Source of the DNA: Desulfosudis oleivorans Hxd3
Lineage (GTDB): Bacteria > Desulfobacterota > Desulfobacteria > Desulfobacterales > Desulfosudaceae
Assembly (NCBI RefSeq): GCF_000018405.1
Contig: NC_009943.1
Span: 2,917,001-2,981,000, forward strand
DNA length: 64,000 nt
Direction: 5' to 3'
Below the pieces are notes generated by a model. It made no database searches. It saw nothing but the letters and a program-made list of their open reading frames with translations, and had not been told where the DNA came from. Position numbers and translations under genes: made by a program. This document shows positions 15,028-46,648 of the stretch, piece by piece. Position 1 is the first letter of the stretch. Each line of letters begins with the position of its first letter.

Positions 15028-15044
15028 CTAGCATAAACAACCAT

Positions 15045-15125
15045 ACCGCTGCAATTTCCCTACGCTGGCATTACCCAGACCAGGTTCAAAGGGTATGTTC
15101 TCAGGCTTTCTGTCGCCACCCCCAA
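15045..15125 (-). promoter_or_regulatory. TPP riboswitch (THI element)
   Basis: Reading the minus strand there are the invariant CTGAGA (within GCCTGAGAACATACCC), ACCTGGTCTGGGTAATGCC and AGCGTAGGGAA segments of the thiamine pyrophosphate aptamer in the right order and spacing. It lies upstream of thiC with a terminator between them, so TPP should lower thiC-thi4 transcription. Confidence 0.95.
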
Positions 15126-15164
15126 TCCTGCATCAACACATTCTTTTTAAAGAGCGAATGCCGG

Positions 15165-15241
15165 TGGTGGGCCGTGAAGGAATCGAACCTTCAACCTCCT
15201 GATTAAGAGTCAGTTGCTCTGCCTAGTTGAGCTAACGGCCC
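15165..15241 (-). tRNA. tRNA-Lys(CTT)
   Basis: Minus-strand cloverleaf: acceptor arms GGGCCGT/ACGGCCC, D-arm with TAGCTCAACTAGGCAGAGC, anticodon loop CTCTTAA with anticodon CTT, T-arm with GGTTCGATTCC, discriminator A and an encoded CCA (15167-15165). A clear promoter lies just upstream, and the TPP riboswitch begins about 40 nt downstream. Confidence 0.95.
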
Positions 15242-23501: not shown

Positions 23502-25010
23502 TTACTGCCGCAAAAGTGTCTGGCGCACATGGAGAAAAAAAGTTCTTAGAAAATCGGGATGGGCAAACAGCTGGCGGCTGTACCAGGCGGCAAATTCCCG
23601 GGGATTGCGAAACGGCAGGCGCAACAGGTTCTTAAAATAGGTCAGGCTCTGAATGCGCCGCAGATCCTTGCTGGTAAAATCGGCGCCGCTTAAATCGGAC
23701 TGAAAATAGTTGTTGCCCCCCTCATAGGCGTAGGTATCGGATATAAGGCCCTCGTCCACGCACCGTTTCCACAGCTCGGAGCCGGGAAGGGGGTTGTAGA
23801 TAAACGGCACCAGGTAATCCGCCCCCAGCAAAAGCGCGTACCGCATGGAGTTTTCAATCTGGGCCAGGGTCTCGCCGGGAAACCCGATGATAAAATAGGC
23901 AACCGTGGCAATACCTGTCCGCCGGGCCAGGGCCGCCACATGCCGGGCCTTGTCCAGGGTAAAGGGCTTGCGCACATACCGCGCGAACGAGAGCGGATCT
24001 CCGGACTCAATGGCCAGGGTCAGTTCATAACAGCCGCTTTTTTTCATCAGGGCCAGCATTTCCTCGTCCAGGGTCCAGAGGGCAATGCCGTTGGGCGTGT
24101 TCCAGGGCATGGTAAGCCCCCGGTCGATCATGCCCGAGAAGATCGCCTTTGCCCGGTTTCGGTCCGCGGTCAGGTTGTCATCCTGCCACTTTAACTCCTG
24201 AATGTTGTACCGGCTTTTAAGATGCTCAATCTCGGCGAGCACGTTTTCGGCGGACCGTTTGCGAAACCGTTTGCCCCAGTGAAGATGGGAGGAGCAGAAC
24301 GGGCAGCCAAACGGGCAGCCCCGGCTGGACACGATGGGCGTGTTTCTCTTTTTTCGCCAGTGCAGGCCCATGGGCACCGTTGCCGCAAAATAGTTTTCCA
24401 TGGGCAGAAGATCTCTGGCTGGCAGGGGAAGCACATCCAGATCCTCTATCCATGTGGTGCGGGGATTGACCTGAACCCCGCTTTTGGTGCGAAAGGCGAT
24501 GCCGTCGATATCCTCGATCCGGCCGCCGCTGTTGTGGGCTTCAATGATCCGTTCCAGCCCCAGCTCCCCTTCGCCCAGCACCACGTAGTCAATGTAAGGA
24601 TGCTCCAGGGTCATTTCCGGCAGAAAGGAGGGGTGGGTGCCGCCGGTCACAACGATCATCTCCGGGTCGATCTCCTTTTTGACCCGGCGGGCAATCTCGG
24701 TTACGCAGGAAAACTGGCTGGAAAAAATACAGGAGAGGCCCACCATGTCTGGCGCAAACCCGCGGATGCGGGCCAGAATATCGTCATAGGGCAGGCCCAC
24801 CCGCTCAATCTTTTCGCTGACCGCCACCCGGCGGGCGCCGTTTTCGGCCAGGCAGTCCAGAAGCTGCACCTCCACCCGGTCCCGAATATGGGCGGCCAGA
24901 GACGCAATGCCCATGGGCGGGCAGACCATGGTATCCACGTGGCGAATGTCGTGCATGGGCGGAAAAATCAGCATCACCCGCCTGACCGACCGCAGGGTTC
25001 GAACGGTCAT
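23502..25010 (-). CDS. B12-binding radical SAM protein, tandem paralogue 3
   Basis: A 502-residue protein. The N-terminal cobalamin-binding-like domain starts with RRVMLIFPPMHDIRHVDTM and ends near residue 185; the radical SAM cluster is Cys232-x3-Cys236-x2-Cys239 (SSRGCPFGCPFC). It is the last gene of three paralogues transcribed from 28144 downwards; its ATG overlaps the previous stop (25007-25010). Strong similarity to the other two runs over the whole length, with most change in the last 100 residues. BchE-like enzymes and B12-dependent methylases share this layout. The substrate is unknown. Confidence 0.85.
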   Translation of the reverse strand: MTVRTLRSVRRVMLIFPPMHDIRHVDTMVCPPMGIASLAAHIRDRVEVQLLDCLAENGARRVAVSEKIERVGLPYDDILARIRGFAPDMVGLSCIFSSQFSCVTEIARRVKKEIDPEMIVVTGGTHPSFLPEMTLEHPYIDYVVLGEGELGLERIIEAHNSGGRIEDIDGIAFRTKSGVQVNPRTTWIEDLDVLPLPARDLLPMENYFAATVPMGLHWRKKRNTPIVSSRGCPFGCPFCSSHLHWGKRFRKRSAENVLAEIEHLKSRYNIQELKWQDDNLTADRNRAKAIFSGMIDRGLTMPWNTPNGIALWTLDEEMLALMKKSGCYELTLAIESGDPLSFARYVRKPFTLDKARHVAALARRTGIATVAYFIIGFPGETLAQIENSMRYALLLGADYLVPFIYNPLPGSELWKRCVDEGLISDTYAYEGGNNYFQSDLSGADFTSKDLRRIQSLTYFKNLLRLPFRNPREFAAWYSRQLFAHPDFLRTFFLHVRQTLLRQ

Positions 25011-26569
25011 TGCCGTCCCTTTCGATCCGCTGTCCGTACGACTCTCCTGTTGATAAACACCTGCAGCCGAAACTTCCAGAGGTTTTGAAAAAAATCACGC
25101 AGAAAAACCGGCCGAAAGATCAGACGGCGGCTGTACCAGGCCAGAAACTCGGCCGGGTTGCGAAAGGGAAGCTTTGCCAGGTTGGTCAGGTAGGCCCTGC
25201 CCTGAAGGCGATACACCTCGTCAATATCAAAAAGCTGGGTATCAAAATCGGGTTTGAAAAAATTGTTGGCATCCTTGTAAGAGTAGCCATCGGTGACCAG
25301 ACCCGTTTCAACGCATTGCTGCCACAAATCGGAGCCGGGCAGCGGCGTATAGACAAAAGGAGAAAGATAATCCACGCCCAGGTCCAGGGCGTAGCGCATG
25401 GAATTTTTAATCTGGTCGATGGTCTCTCCGGGAAACCCGAGAATAAAATAGGCCACCGTGGCAATCCCCCTCTCCCTGGCCAGGCCGGCGATTCGCTTTG
25501 CCGTGTCCAGGGTAAAGGGTTTGCGTACGTATTTTTCAAAGGAGGCCGGGTCCCCGGACTCCACGGCCAGGGTAATTTCAAAGCATCCGCTCTTTTTCAT
25601 CAGGTCCAGCATTTCTTCATCCAGGGTCCAGAGGGCGATGCCGTTGGGCGTGTTCCACGGCATGACAAGCCCCCGGTCGATCATACCCGAAAAGATCGCC
25701 TTTGCCCGGTTTCTGTCCGCGGTGAGGTTGTCGTCCTGCCACTTTAACTCCTGAATGTTGTACCGGGTTTTCAGGTGTTCGATCTCGGCCAGCACGTTTT
25801 CCGGTGACCGTTTGCGAAACCGCTGGCCCCAGTGGCGCCAGGAGGAGCAGAACGGGCAGCCAAAGGGACATCCCCGGCTGGACACAATAGGGGTGTTGCG
25901 GGTTTTGCGCCAGTGAAACCCCATGGGCAGCCGGGCGGAAAAATAGGTCTCCATGGGCAGAAGGTCCCGGGCCGGGAGAGGAAGGGTGTCCAGGTCCTCT
26001 ATCCAGGTGGTGCGGGGGTTGACGTGAACGCCGTTTTCGGTGCGAAAGGCGATGCCGTCGATGTTGTCGATCCGGTTCCCGCTGTTGTGGGCCTCGATAA
26101 TCTGTTTCAAGCCCAGCTCGCCCTCGCCCAGCACTACGTAATCCACCGCGGTCCGGGTCAGGGTCTGCTCCGGCAGAAAAGAGGGGTGGGTACCGCCGGT
26201 GGCGATCACCATGTCGGGATCAATCTCGTCCCGAATACGGCGGCTGAGCTGTTCCACGCAGGCGATCTGGCCGGAAAAAATGCAGGAGATGCCCACCATG
26301 TCAGGCGCGCAGGCCCGGATTCGGGCGAGAATCTCGTCCGCGGAAAGGCCCACCAGTTCCACCTCCCGGTTGACCGGCGCGGCCTGCCGATACCCCTCGG
26401 CCACGCAGTCCAGAAGGGAGACCTCCACCATGTCCCGAATATAGGCCCCCAGGCAGGCAATGCCCATGGGCGGCACCACCATGGTGTCGATGAGCTTGAC
26501 ATCGTACATGGGCGGAAAGAGCAGCATCACCCGCCGAATGGGGCGCAGGGGTCTTGAAATATCCGCCAT
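25007..26569 (-). CDS. B12-binding radical SAM protein, tandem paralogue 2
   Basis: A 520-residue protein, the middle copy of the triplet. The layout is as in its neighbours: cobalamin-binding-like domain (about 10-190), then SSRGCPFGCPFC with the cluster cysteines near 234, 238 and 241, then a TIM-barrel half with LKWQDDNLTADR and a C-terminal tail of about 120 residues. Its start directly follows the stop of paralogue 1, and its stop overlaps the start of paralogue 3, so the three are one operon. Whether the copies act on different substrates or form a complex cannot be read from sequence. Confidence 0.85.
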   Translation of the reverse strand: MADISRPLRPIRRVMLLFPPMYDVKLIDTMVVPPMGIACLGAYIRDMVEVSLLDCVAEGYRQAAPVNREVELVGLSADEILARIRACAPDMVGISCIFSGQIACVEQLSRRIRDEIDPDMVIATGGTHPSFLPEQTLTRTAVDYVVLGEGELGLKQIIEAHNSGNRIDNIDGIAFRTENGVHVNPRTTWIEDLDTLPLPARDLLPMETYFSARLPMGFHWRKTRNTPIVSSRGCPFGCPFCSSWRHWGQRFRKRSPENVLAEIEHLKTRYNIQELKWQDDNLTADRNRAKAIFSGMIDRGLVMPWNTPNGIALWTLDEEMLDLMKKSGCFEITLAVESGDPASFEKYVRKPFTLDTAKRIAGLARERGIATVAYFILGFPGETIDQIKNSMRYALDLGVDYLSPFVYTPLPGSDLWQQCVETGLVTDGYSYKDANNFFKPDFDTQLFDIDEVYRLQGRAYLTNLAKLPFRNPAEFLAWYSRRLIFRPVFLRDFFQNLWKFRLQVFINRRVVRTADRKGRQ

Positions 26570-28144
26570 CTATCTATTCCTTTTTACAAACAGGCTGGAT
26601 TGTCTGATGCCGCTGACGATTATGCTCCGGGTATTCCAGAGCACTTTGAGAAAATCCACCAGAAACCAGGGGGCTGTTAGCAGCTTGCGGCTGTAGTTGG
26701 CCATAAACTCCCGGGGGTTACGAAAAGGAAGCTTTGCCAGGTTTTGAAGGTAAGCCATGCCCTGCACGTAGCTGACTTCATCCCCACCGCCGGAGACTTT
26801 ACCGTCAGGCCCGGCACTCACCAACGCACCGGGATCCATATAGTTATTTGATCTTTCATATTGAAGGCTGTCAGAAAGAAACCCCTTTTGCATACACTCC
26901 TGCCACAGTTCCGACCCGGGAAGGGGGTTGAAGATAAAGGGCACCAGGTAATCCACCCCCATACGAAGGCCGAACCGTATGGAACTTTTTACCTGCCGCA
27001 CGGTTTCTCCGGGAAACCCCAGAATAAAATAGGCGACTGTGGTAATCCTCCGTTCTCTGGCCATTCTTGCCACCTTAGCGGCCTGATCCAGCGTAAAGGG
27101 CTTTTTAACAAATCTCCGAAAGGTCTCCGGATCGCCGGATTCAACGGCCAGGGTGATTTCAAAACACCCGCTTTTTTTCATCAGGTCCAGCATTTCCCCA
27201 TCCAGGGTCCAAAGGGCAATACCGTTAGGCGTGTTCCACGGCATGACAAGCCCCCTGTCGATCATACCCTGAAAAATGGCCTTTGCCCGGTTTCTGTCCG
27301 CGGTGAGGTTGTCGTCCTGCCACTTTAACTCCTGAATGTTGTACCGGCTTTTCAGGTGTGTGATCTCGGCCAGAACGTTTTCGGCGGATCGTTTGCGAAA
27401 CCGCTGGCCCCAGTGACGCCAGGAGGAACAAAACGGGCACTTGAAAGGGCATCCCCGGCTGGACACGATCGGGGTATTCCTCACTTTTCGCCAGTGAAGC
27501 GCCATGGGAACCTTTGCCTCAAAATATGTTTCCATGGGCAGAAGGTCACGGGCCGGAAAGGGAAGCGTATCCAGGTCCTCTATCCAGGTGGTGCGGGGGG
27601 TGACTTGAACCCCATTTTCGGTGCGAAAGGCGACACCGTCAATATCTTCAATACGTCCCCCGCTGTTATGCGTCTCGATGATCTGTTTTAACCCCAGTTC
27701 CCCTTCGCCCAGGACCACATAATCCACATCAGCTTCAGACAGGGTCTGCTCCGGCAGAAAAGAGGGGTGGGTGCCGCCGGTGACAATCACCATGTCGGGA
27801 TCCACCTTTTCCCGGATTTTCCGGCTCAAGTCCTTCACGCAGGCAAACTGGTTGGAAAAAATACAGGAGAGGCCCACCATGTCCGGCCTGTAGGCTCGAA
27901 CCCGTGCAAGAATCTCATCGTCAGACAGCCCTACCCTGGCAATATGCCGGGCCACCGATACCTTCTGCCGATATCCCTCGGCCACGCAGTCCAGCAGGGC
28001 CACATCCACCATGTCCCGGACATAGGCGGCCAGGGAGGCAATGCCCATGGGTGGCACCACCATGGTATCAATAATCTTAACATCATGCATTGGCGGAAAT
28101 AATAGCAGGACACGCTGAACAGGACGAAGAGGCGTACGGCTCAT
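26570..28144 (-). CDS. B12-binding radical SAM protein, tandem paralogue 1
   Basis: A 524-residue protein and the first gene of the triplet. I start it at 28144 (MSRTPLRPVQRVLLLFPP), which aligns with the starts of its paralogues and has AGGGAGA upstream; the frame is open for 80 more codons, but these look non-coding. The cluster is CPFKCPFC in the same place as in the sisters. It differs from them by an insertion near residue 455 (a Gly/Ser/Asp-rich loop before EVSYVQGMAYLQNL), so it may be the most specialised copy. The upstream region faces the rpsT promoter. Confidence 0.85.
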   Translation of the reverse strand: MSRTPLRPVQRVLLLFPPMHDVKIIDTMVVPPMGIASLAAYVRDMVDVALLDCVAEGYRQKVSVARHIARVGLSDDEILARVRAYRPDMVGLSCIFSNQFACVKDLSRKIREKVDPDMVIVTGGTHPSFLPEQTLSEADVDYVVLGEGELGLKQIIETHNSGGRIEDIDGVAFRTENGVQVTPRTTWIEDLDTLPFPARDLLPMETYFEAKVPMALHWRKVRNTPIVSSRGCPFKCPFCSSWRHWGQRFRKRSAENVLAEITHLKSRYNIQELKWQDDNLTADRNRAKAIFQGMIDRGLVMPWNTPNGIALWTLDGEMLDLMKKSGCFEITLAVESGDPETFRRFVKKPFTLDQAAKVARMARERRITTVAYFILGFPGETVRQVKSSIRFGLRMGVDYLVPFIFNPLPGSELWQECMQKGFLSDSLQYERSNNYMDPGALVSAGPDGKVSGGGDEVSYVQGMAYLQNLAKLPFRNPREFMANYSRKLLTAPWFLVDFLKVLWNTRSIIVSGIRQSSLFVKRNR

Positions 28145-28349
28145 CTTAATAGCGATCTCCCTGGTTTCCATCCATAAATGGCCTTTTCTCATTTCTGGGT
28201 TGGAAACCTTTGTCGTGTCCTCATAATAGATGGATGGATGGATACTCCTTAATTCGTGCCGGGGGGATAGCCCGGTACGCAGGCACCGCAGGTAATTTAC
28301 GCCGCCCACTATAACGCAAACCGAAAGGGTAAAAAAGGAAAAAATTAGA

Positions 28350-28379
28350 TTGACAAGCACCGACTTACCGATGCATAAT
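28350..28379 (+). promoter_or_regulatory. Promoter of rpsT
   Basis: TTGACA at 28350-28355, 18-nt spacer, CATAAT at 28374-28379, 50 nt before the GTG start. Confidence 0.65.
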
Positions 28380-28428
28380 AGCAAATTTAAATTCTCGAAG
28401 ACTTTTTATTTTTGAAGGAGAAACAACA

Positions 28429-29293: not shown

Positions 29294-29430
29294 ATCGATT
29301 CTCCCCTGGATGTTCTCTTCCTATGGCCTTTAGCTCAGTGATCCAATTTTATCAAAAACTGTTGTGGGACTATAAAATGAATTTCTATCGGGTAAATAGG
29401 GCATAAATGGTTGATCCCGCCCGTTGCAAC

Positions 29431-29598
29431 GCAGCCGAGCGCGAACACTTTTTTCGGATTAAGCGGGCAGGCTGTTTGAGCACCGCAAAGCGGGCGAGTT
29501 CCTGCCCGCGCCGAAAAAAGTATTCGCGCGAGGGAAGCCGAAGGCCAAGTTGCAGGGCGCGGTTCTTTTGGTACTTTTCTTGCCGCCAAGAAAAGTAC
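29431..29598. repeat. Structured repeat element, copy A (double hairpin with palindromic tail)
   Basis: It starts with GCAGCCGAG. The outer helix pairs 29441-29457 with 29511-29527 (17 bp, one mismatch); the inner helix pairs GCGGGCAGG (29463-29471) with CCTGCCCGC (29501-29509); the 29-nt loop contains GAGCACCG and GGGCGAGTT. Then comes GCGAGGGAAGCC and a second palindrome, GTACTTTTCTTG/CAAGAAAAGTAC, at 29571-29598. Copy B at 46470-46648 has the same layout with different, still complementary, helix sequences. The remaining 29294-29430 shows no gene. Confidence 0.85.
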
Positions 29599-29607
29599 AC
29601 GGACCGG

Positions 29608-32205
29608 CTAAACCACAATATTGACCAGCTTCCCCGGCACCACAATCACCTTTCTGACCGGCTTGCCGGCCACAAACTTCTGTGCCTGTTCACAGGCCAG
29701 GGCCTTTGCCTCAAGGGTTTTGACGTCGGCATCCGCCGGCGCGGTAAACCGGTCCCGCAGCTTGCCGTTGACCTGGACCACCACCAGGACCTCCTGCTCA
29801 GCGGCGGCCTCGGATGAGAATGCGGGCCAGGGGTGACGCAGGATGCTTTCCGTGTGGCCCAGGCCGGCCCAGAGTTCCTCGCATAGGTGGGGGACGATGG
29901 GGGAAAGCAGAAGGATCACGGTTTCCGCGGCATGCCGCATCACCTGCCGGGCCGTGGGGTCCTGCCGGTCGCTGATGGTGTACATCTCATTGACCAGTTC
30001 CATGACAGCACTGATGGCGGTATTAAAATGAAACCGCTCCTCGATATCCGCCGTAACCCTGCCAATGGTCTGGTGGGTCTTGCGATAAAGCCCCTGCAGG
30101 GCATCGGGCAGGGCCGTCACATCGCCTTTATAGGGGGCCACGCCGTCAATGGCGTCCATCCACTCCACAAAAAACCGCCATACCCGGTTTAAAAACCGGT
30201 AAGACCCCTCCACGCCCTGGTCGCTCCACTCCAGGCCCTTTTCCGGCGGCGAGGCAAACAGGCAGAAGAGCCGGGTCACATCGGCCCCGTATTTGTCCAG
30301 CAGGAAGTTGGGGTCGATGACGTTCTTTTTTGACTTGGACATCTTTTCCACCCGGCCCACGGTCACCGGGCCTTCACACTTGACGCACACCAGGTCCCCG
30401 GCGTCGGTCTTTCCAACCTCTTCCGGGTACAAAAACCCGTGGGCTTCGCAGGCGTAGGTCTCCTTGCACACCATGCCCTGGGTCAGCAGCCGGGTAAAGG
30501 GCTCCTTGAAGTCCACCAGGTCCAGATCGTGGAGAACCCGGGTAAAATAGCGGGAGTAGAGCAGGTGCAGAATCGCGTGCTCCACGCCGCCGATGTACTG
30601 GTCCGCCGGCATCCAGTACCGGACCGCTGCCGGGTCGAATATGGCGTGGTCGCATTCCGGGCTGCAGTAGCGCAGGTAGTACCATGACGAATCCACAAAA
30701 GTGTCCATGGTGTCGGTCTCCCGCCGGGCTTTTTTCCCGCATTTGGGGCAGACGGCCGACACAAAGGATTCCAGCACCGGCAGCGGGGAACGTCCCCCTT
30801 CCAGAAGATCGGCATCCTCGGGCAGCACCACGGGCAGGTCGGCCTCGGGCACCGGCACGATGCCGCAGGCGTCGCAGTGAACCATGGGGATGGGGGCTCC
30901 CCAGTACCGCTGCCGGGAGATGCCCCAGTCCCGCAGCCGGAAACTGACGGTTTTTTTGCCGATGCCCTTTTCCTCCAGGTATTCGGCAATCGCGTCCAGG
31001 GCCGCCCCGCTGTCAATGCCGTCAAAGGGGCCGGAATTGATCATCACGCCCCGGCCGGTGAAGGCCTCGGTCATGATTTCAGCGGCCAGGTCGGCATCCG
31101 CCGGCTTGACCACCACCACGATGTCCAGGTCGTACTTTTTGGCAAACTCAAAATCGCGCTGGTCGTGGGCCGGCACGCTCATGACCGCGCCGGTGCCGTA
31201 CTCCATCAGGGCGAAGTTGGCGGTATAAACCGGCATGGACCGGCCGGTGACCGGGTTGACACAGAAGGCGCCGATAAACACGCCTTCCTTCTCATAGGAT
31301 TCCACAGCCTTGCTGGTGCGGTCGGTAAGGGTCATCTTCTCCACAAAGGCGTTGACCGCGGCCTCCTGTTGGGTGCCCGCGGCAAGCTGCGTCACCAGGG
31401 GGTGTTCCGGCGCCAGGCAGAGAAATGTGGCCCCGAACACCGTGTCCTGCCGGGTGGTAAAGACCGGGATCTGAATATCGCTGTCCTTTACCGGAAAACG
31501 AATCTCAGCGCCCACGCTCTTGCCGATCCAGTTTTTCTGCATGGTGGTGACCCGCTCCGGCCAGCCGGGCAACTGGTCGCAGTAAACCAGCAGGTCTTCG
31601 GCATAATCGGTGATGCGGAAAAACCACTGGGCCAGCTTTTTCTGCCTTACGGCATGGCCGCACCGCCAGCACGCCCCGGCCTCCACCTGTTCGTTGGCCA
31701 GCACCGTGGCGCAGGTGTCACACCAGTTGACAAAGGCGTCTTTCCGGTAGGCCATGCCCTTTTCATACATTTTGACAAACAGCCACTGCTCCCACCGGTA
31801 ATAATCGGGGTCGCAGGTGGCGATCTCCCGGTCCCAGTCATAACTGAGCCCCATCCGCTTCAACTGGGCCCGCATGTAGGCGATGTTCTCCCGGGTCCAC
31901 CGGGCTGGATGCGTGTTGTTGGCAATGGCCGCGTTTTCCGCGGGCATGCCAAAGGCGTCCCATCCCATGGGGTGAAGCACGTTAAACCCCTTCATCATCT
32001 TATAACGGGCCACCACGTCGCCGATGGTATAGTTTCTCACATGGCCCATGTGAATCCGGCCCGACGGATAGGGAAACATCTCAAACAGGTAATACTTCTC
32101 TTTTTTTCCGTCTTCCGCGGCCCGGAAGATGGCGGTTCTGTTCCAGGTCTCCTGCCATCTGGCCTCAATCTCCCCGGGCCGATAGGTATCGCTGATGCCG
32201 CTCAT
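29608..32205 (-). CDS. leuS: Leucyl-tRNA synthetase
   Basis: An 865-residue class I synthetase that charges tRNA-Leu. Visible: the HIGH-type motif as HMGH within [18 protein letters not shown] (about 48-65), zinc-ribbon cysteines CDTC/CWRC (about 155-178), the editing domain with [11 protein letters not shown] (about 245) and DQRDFEF (about 340), and KMSKSKKNV (about 615). The length is standard. The start has AAAGGGTG upstream. It heads a minus-strand unit with lptE and diverges from rng. Confidence 0.97.
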
Positions 32206-46288: not shown

Positions 46289-46469
46289 AGTACGGTGGCG
46301 GTCAGCCCGTGGCGCCCATTAAAGGATCAGCCGCACTGGGGTGCGGTGCTCCCGGGGATGCACGGCCGGCCGTTGATACCGTTCTGCCCAATGCCCTTAC
46401 GGGCACACTACAAACCTGGACGTTTCAAGCCCGGCCCGTCTCCAATGACAGCCCCCCGCCCATTGCGGC

Positions 46470-46648
46470 GCAGCCGAGGGAGAAGAATTTTTCGGCAAAA
46501 AGCGAAAATGCTGTCTGAGCACCGCCGCAGGCGGGCGAGTTCATTTTCGCGCCGAAAAATTCTTCGAGCGAGGGAAGCCACGCCTGTGGTGTGGCCAAGC
46601 TGCGGGGCGCGGTTCTTTTGGTACTTTTCTTGCCGCCAAGAAAAGTAC
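46470..46648. repeat. Structured repeat element, copy B
   Basis: The same layout as copy A. Flank GCAGCCGAG; outer helix 46482-46495 with 46552-46565 (14 bp, perfect); inner helix GCGAAAATG (46502-46510) with CATTTTCGC (46542-46550); a 31-nt loop with GAGCACCG and GGGCGAGTT; then GCGAGGGAAGCC and the GTACTTTTCTTG palindrome (46621-46648). Four of nine inner base pairs differ from copy A, and all stay paired. Confidence 0.85.

Follow-up and report, generated by a model that had tools for sequence, protein, structure and literature searches.

A dispersed intergenic repeat of Desulfosudis oleivorans Hxd3 with compensated helices around an invariant mismatched tip

Two stretches of DNA in the chromosome of Desulfosudis oleivorans Hxd3, copies A and B, keep the same flanks and the same central loop while the helices between them differ in sequence and still pair. 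What kind of element is conserved in this manner, and is the folding itself under selection? A preliminary description of the sequence took the compensatory changes as strong evidence that it is. We addressed these questions in the window (the whole stretch of 64,000 nucleotides that was analysed, from whose first letter all coordinates are counted), in the chromosome and in collections of other genomes. The family is dispersed and lies between genes, its arms diverge yet stay complementary around an invariant mismatched tip, and part of it is carried in inverted-repeat units with target duplications. We consider the chance about even that it is a non-autonomous, fold-back mobile DNA repeat whose tip is read as a folded single strand, with DNA likelier than RNA.

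Anatomy and covariation of the element

When checked in the sequence, the positions of copies A and B, their flanks and their inner helices were as the preliminary description had given them. The features of both copies are as follows.

29419..29598, + strand: copy A, whole element (positions 1-181 of model R1)
29419..29430, + strand: copy A, outer helix H0, 5' side (GCCC + TTGCAAC), partners 29549-29558
29439..29457, + strand: copy A, helix H1, 5' arm, partner 29511-29529
29463..29471, + strand: copy A, helix H2, 5' arm, GCGGGCAGG, partner 29501-29509
29472..29500, + strand: copy A, tip, CTGTTTGAGC...GCGAGTT, with tandem G.A mismatches and the apical hairpin (invariant alignment columns; same tip in many phyla)
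29501..29509, + strand: copy A, helix H2, 3' arm, CCTGCCCGC (sequence and alignment)
29511..29529, + strand: copy A, helix H1, 3' arm (sequence and alignment)
29537..29545, + strand: copy A, small hairpin H4, GCC-GAA-GGC (GCCGAAGGC; alignment)
29571..29598, + strand: copy A, 3' hairpin H5, GTACTTTTCTT-loop-AAGAAAAGTAC, whose end is 9 nt from the stop codon of leuS
46458..46648, + strand: copy B, whole element (sequence, blastn and covariance model)
46482..46495, + strand: copy B, helix H1, 5' arm, 14 bp, partner 46552-46565
46502..46510, + strand: copy B, helix H2, 5' arm, GCGAAAATG, partner CATTTTCGC at 46542-46550
46511..46541, + strand: copy B, tip (sequence)
46621..46648, + strand: copy B, 3' hairpin H5 (sequence)

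From 5' to 3' on the plus strand, H0 encloses H1, then H2, the tip with its apical hairpin H3, and then H4, and H5 (GTACTTTTCTT / AAGAAAAGTAC) is located outside H0, 3' of H4. H0 reads GCCC..TTGCAGC / GCTGCA..GGGC, and some copies have CACGCC-TGT-GGCGTG as H4 in place of GCC-GAA-GGC. The family tip in this genome is CTGTYTGAGC..GCGAGTT around H3; tandem G.A mismatches, each from two facing GA dinucleotides, were read from the alignment at the H1 base and in the tip. Both copies are thus real, and the element is longer than was first noted, with H0, H4 and the 3' hairpin at 29571-29598 in addition. The 14 bp given for the outer helix of copy B stood; that of copy A, given as 17 bp, was found to occupy 19 positions, one of which is C.A. 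The plus strand of copy A folds at -81.1 kcal/mol (z -4.47) and the minus strand with a z of -6.78. None of 200 shuffles folded as well on either strand.

The chromosome is a single contig of 3,944,167 bases (3.94 Mb). Blastn with copy A recovered 40 full or near-full copies (40 of 86 first-look candidates were scored). A covariance model found at least 51 full-length copies at >=97 bits, plus shortened forms (150 of 2551 candidates scored), 40 of these 51 copies being the training set of the model. The dispersal claimed from two copies therefore holds for the genome. The GCGAGGGAAGCC string alone, at one mismatch, was found 2 times against 0.82 expected, which is within chance; the whole element exceeds chance. 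The identities listed for the copies were 74 to 95%, so that the copies are not the identical ones that the preliminary description had associated with simple recent transposition.

Across the 40 distinct aligned copies, 95.1% of 2323 helix cells were paired, a value favoured to some degree by the procedure, in which the copies were aligned by sequence (MAFFT) and the structure was taken from one alignment row. Pairing fell to 35-52% when the partner was slid by 1-3 columns. Changes on both sides were present in 22 of 59 pairs against a shuffled mean of 12.2, a number reached by 0 of 500 shuffles, and spanned 94 cells against a shuffled mean of 24.8; the further pair types were less exceptional (45 against 41.1, with 26 of 500 shuffles reaching 45). 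In H0, the GCAGC part was paired in 100% of cells and the GCCC part in 85.4% (40 copies). H1 with its two outer pairs was paired in 93.9% of cells, with two-sided changes at 10 of 21 pairs, and H2 in 99.7%, with such changes at 4 of 9 pairs. The helices stay paired in the other copies as well.

The tip bases TGT, TGA and GAGTTC were invariant in 40 of 40 copies, mismatches included, while the helices vary; as these copies were gathered by similarity to copy A, the set is biased toward conserved parts. Eleven copies stood outside the alignment, and the tip was found in seven of them, with an inner helix of 9/9 pairs in five, 8/9 in one and 7/9 in one. Two further compensated inner helices, GCGGTCAGG/CCTGACCGC and GGGCAATG/CATTGCCC, were among these. 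The other four gave no tip match, which for one is explained by another repeat inserted there.

Several copies have other repeats in or near them. The hairpins of L065 and L068 (G000:C1 1076501 and 74870) contain a different palindromic repeat, TGTAGGGGCG..CCCCTACA, and the copy L063 (G000:C1 3416799-3417210) is split by an unrelated insertion of about 200 bp. By eye, small repeats adjoin the 3' flanks of L017, L020, L034 and others in a mosaic of AAGATTGCTTCG..CGCAATGAC, CACGGGCAAGC..GCCCGTG and GATTTCGATACC runs. Elsewhere in the window, the minus strand carries three tandem ORFs of 502, 520 and 604 codons (23502-28384), by eye apparent paralogous cobalamin-binding radical-SAM proteins, and a TPP riboswitch adjoining a tRNA-Lys gene (15040-15241).

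Insertion at leuS and inverted-repeat units

The element was inserted at leuS in this lineage. In nine relatives, a spacer of 2-131 nt separates leuS from one and the same small lipoprotein-like gene downstream, whose product we read as probable LptE; here copy A lies between both. Ten genomes were searched over 700 nt downstream, and the junction of leuS with the next gene was without the tip in all nine relatives with a leuS orthologue, the tenth genome (G001) having weak paralogue matches only. Similarity to the other listed copies ends within about 25 nt of copy A and about 100 nt of copy B. Inverted ends and target duplications were looked for at both copies and none were recognised, and the case for their mobility therefore comes from presence or absence and from copy number.

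An alignment was made of nine copies that share long flanks. Eight of them lie in units of 463-521 bp that have inverted ends (..GGTGTCCAAAATAG / ..TTTTTGGACAATAA..); the remaining copy, L006, is divergent on either side. Direct repeats of 9 bp were recognised by eye at six of the eight units (five exact, one with one mismatch) and two units had none; L018 and L030 have a common target, a palindromic repeat, and may not be independent.

By eye, the 0.5 kb units of L018, L028 and L030 are located beside or in a palindrome of the CCCGGATATTTCATGAAATATCCGGG kind, perhaps a repeated target.

A second set of ends was found in the related genome G012, which has 41 tip matches. The tip there is at the apex of an element of 235-237 bp that by eye is one long inverted repeat overall; by eye, too, no hairpin of the H5 type was seen in the copies. 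Thirteen copies were fetched, and with small offsets allowed, direct repeats of 7-9 bp were present at five of the seven measurable ones; one had 6 bp and one none. The terminal repeat occurs 270 times in G012 (both strands, at most one mismatch). The tip was inside 7 of 30 fetched terminal-repeat places and missing from 23, so these repeats do not need the tip. Among the places without the tip, 15 showed a second end 50-187 bp away and are in part deletion forms of the larger element; at the other eight no second end was recognised. Shortened forms lacking the hairpin are present in the Hxd3 genome too.

At about 180 bp, or up to 521 bp for the units, the element is too short for a transposase gene. 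Open frames are frequent (up to 36 of 40 copies in one minus frame), and a mechanical ORF of 136 codons runs through copy A (29407-29817). No reading frame is kept, since division of the copy lengths by 3 leaves each of the three possible remainders (14, 16 and 10 copies). Heuristic gene calling predicted no gene spanning the element in 39 of 40 copies and made one weak, short ORF call at L010. Some short hypothetical ORFs may be mere translations of the repeat. An autonomous partner with the same ends was not found at the 13 left-end places of this genome (at most one mismatch): eight are the element units, and the other five had no second end within 1.5 kb. Nor was an autonomous transposon with the G012 ends noted at the 30 of 270 terminal-repeat places that were inspected for the tip and a second end.

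The element works like a MITE, a membership that is shown for part of the family and not for copies A and B. It is short, dispersed, palindromic and non-coding, with terminal inverted repeats in eight copies here and in the G012 family, and with duplications of 9 bp (6 of 8) and of 7-9 bp (5 of 7). In contrast to a MITE, its interior is conserved, the same mismatched tip being set in varied arms and at least two terminal repeats in many phyla, and copies A and B are without recognised inverted ends.

The tip in other bacteria

A scan of species genomes with CTGTYYGAGCGNAGCGAGTTY found the 21-base tip CTGTYYGAGC-GNA-GCGAGTTY in at least 120 stretches from many phyla, where about 4 would be expected by chance (a rough sum, with even base composition). 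Bacteroidota, Bacillota, Beta- and Gammaproteobacteria, Nitrospirota, Desulfobulbaceae and Patescibacteria are named among the tip matches listed. The earlier statement that similar strings occur in many proteobacteria was borne out, and far beyond that group. Among viral contigs (IMG/VR), the tip was present in 10 stretches of 2.9 million. Within the same phylum, the pattern with a free loop matched 39 of 297 genomes; a reversed-pattern control matched 10 genomes with one match each, and thus chance may account for about a quarter of the 39, mostly genomes with a single match. Model R1 matched 5 of 40 genomes, this one included. It was rejected as a wider search tool, being too specific beyond close relatives and without a match in G012 despite the 41 tip matches there.

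The arms next to the tip form at least 9 of 14 Watson-Crick pairs (offset at most 2) in 77 of 106 distinct elements, a count that, like the other cross-phylum counts, includes related species and is not of independent cases. When the arms were re-paired (300 shuffles), a mean of 3.7 elements and a maximum of 10 reached 9 of 14. The remaining 29 elements are below this mark. The left arms comprise 89 distinct nine-base sequences among 104 elements, and 16 elements form a subclass, GCGAGGA..CCGCAGC, that has an additional internal loop. A perfect hairpin of at least 9 bp was present upstream in 11 of 94 elements and downstream in 40, the other 54 being without a downstream one. Of the 40 downstream hairpins, 28 begin 60-73 nt past the tip, and the 5' arm of these is pyrimidine-rich.

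A miniature transposon would be expected to drift in its interior, and a tip that is near-identical across phyla inside free but pairable arms points to a common recognition event, one that would be outside every Rfam family. Tentatively, and with somewhat less than even confidence, we propose that CTGTYYGAGC-GNA-GCGAGTTY, often with a downstream pyrimidine/purine hairpin, is a bacteria-wide folded signal. It would be present within many different arms and within two or more sets of transposon ends, and a widespread putative protein would recognise its shape. If confirmed, such a signal would be a way into a putative protein that reads a folded single strand.

Proposed reading of the tip and alternative explanations

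For the fold-back mobile repeat, the strand written here would become single-stranded, as the lagging-strand template or as a strand freed in transposition, and would then fold. We infer that the tip is recognised by a putative protein; supplied in trans, it would recognise both the tip and the 3' hairpin from their shape and a small number of fixed bases, and arm sequence would be left free under such a reading. Alternatively, the tip may serve replication or palindrome stability and not transposition itself. Integron attC sites are recognised in folded form, as single-stranded DNA whose arm sequence is free and in which few unpaired bases are fixed, and the element would be alike in its proposed folded single strand, its free arms and its few fixed bases. 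It differs from attC in its conserved motif and in its scattered single intergenic copies, with no cassette arrays in the loci read.

Single-stranded DNA is preferred over RNA because the tip favours DNA-stable loops (C-GNA-G and C-GNNA-G). The count, with the loop left free, took loops that join GAGC to GCGAGTT in 3-4 nt, copied by hand from the first places of each genome only: GNA accounts for 40 of the 51 triloops listed and AAA for 9, and GNNA for 8 of the 10 tetraloops listed, among them GCCA, a loop outside the GNRA class of RNA. C-GNA-G triloops are very stable DNA mini-hairpins. This preference favours DNA without proving it, and the strand test for DNA versus RNA was mixed. G.T exceeds A.C in H1 of this genome (55 vs 14 cells, from copies that are not independent). 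The 3' hairpin has no such strand preference (5 vs 10, partly misalignment), and neither has the pan-bacterial set (32 vs 26, by a symmetric criterion).

The alternative that survives best, which we consider rather unlikely, is a structured RNA, in which intergenic copies would be co-transcribed with their neighbours and the tip would be bound by an RNA-binding protein or affect mRNA stability. The strong covariation of the 40 copies and the tolerance of G.T over A.C in H1 agree with this, as does a Haemophilus site (two named records and L211) where two copies lie between genes that we read from their sequences as ilvC-like and ilvY-like, each copy directed toward its gene. Because this site is common to the three loci, old copies can be inherited in place. 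The gene neighbourhoods in Hxd3 argue against an RNA: among the 34 of 40 copies with both neighbours called, all four flanking-gene arrangements occur (11, 9, 8 and 6) and there is no consistent downstream gene, and copy A is directed against leuS. The commonest loops fit the DNA-stable GNA triloops, and no Rfam 15 family reached the gathering score for the window element or for 19 tip-bearing loci. A permissive Rfam search of the element gave three sub-threshold matches, all to eukaryotic families. Skipping-rope RNA has conserved unpaired bases and covarying helices, as has the element; it was weighed on these features and rejected, with no Rfam match. Skipping-rope (RF02924; PMC7779021) is one of the covariation-defined bacterial RNA families in Rfam.

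An improbable alternative is a neutral pattern, in which an ordinary decaying repeat has its imperfect inverted repeats perfected by template switching and the fold is not selected. As described in two papers (PMC8604942, PMC7202029), template switching homogenises the arms of inverted repeats. L010 looks like such an event, as the 5' arm of its H1 base exactly complements the 3' arm where most copies keep G.A; the deleted derivatives without the hairpin in this genome and in G012, and the pan-bacterial set without strand bias, are also consistent with it. Repair from a template would be expected to remove mismatches, but in all 40 copies the tip keeps its tandem G.A. In addition, the tip is the same across phyla, G.T exceeds A.C in H1, and 28 of 94 elements have the downstream hairpin at much the same distance. 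The compensatory change first described is real, and its weight as strong evidence of selection was overstated, since templated repair of one arm from the other also yields compensation. The conserved mismatched tip is better evidence of selection than the compensatory arms, and within the fold-back mobile repeat some of the compensation may be due to neutral repair by template switching.

REP repeats (REP, REPIN or BIME, with RAYT Y1 transposases) are intergenic multi-copy hairpins, some just past stop codons and some in inverted pairs. A REP/BIME-like chromosomal binding site (for gyrase, IHF or similar), or a REP moved by a Y1 transposase, seems quite improbable: the element is likewise short, palindromic, multi-copy and between genes, with 8 of 40 copies ending at most 36 nt from the stop codon of a convergent gene (heuristic gene calls) and inverted pairs that are divergent at seven loci within 1 kb (three being one Haemophilus site), but it is longer, at about 180 nt, with several helices and without Y1 association.

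The suggested link to a REP-associated Y1 transposase was not supported, and this enzyme was rejected as partner. Y1_Tnp had 4 matches in this genome and was present in 15 of 25 other tip-positive genomes, leaving 10 of the 25 element-bearing genomes unmatched, and the strict tip pattern was absent within about 1.5 kb of all 34 Y1 loci (30 elsewhere and 4 own). A looser tip pattern matched 2 Y1 loci, by chance, and two own-genome Y1 loci have a lone GCAGCCGA octamer. A link to a reverse transcriptase was not supported either: RVT_1 was matched in 13 of the 25 element-bearing genomes and unmatched in 12, with no tip at any of the 26 reverse-transcriptase loci fetched, and the copies may predate the loss of such a partner. 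No transposase stood out as a recurrent neighbour gene of the tip loci (ORF-level look, top 14 clusters); the larger ORF clusters there were apparent translations of the repeat, or housekeeping genes. No candidate for a mobilising gene linked to the element stands. Plasmid and phage collections searched with copy A (distant mode) gave no match, and a literature search by sequence and by concept, mostly among freely readable papers, found no description of the element.

Some tips occur in pairs. Between the paired tips of 8 chosen loci, just ORFs reading across the repeats were found (the longest of 198 codons) and no convincing gene. All seven pairs of opposite-strand tips within 1 kb are divergent (L107, L127, L136, L149, L173, L206 and L211), L127, L149 and L211 being one Haemophilus site. 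L181 has two convergent tips separated by 4.9 kb, and L100, L104 and L117 have pairs on the same strand.

In another related genome, G002 (L090-L096), the apical part of the element is enlarged to 83-85 nt in 7 of 10 measured copies and is 22-23 nt in the other 3. By eye, several of the inserts are alike, and L090, L092 and L094 have a Shine-Dalgarno-like stretch ahead of an 8-codon mini-ORF.
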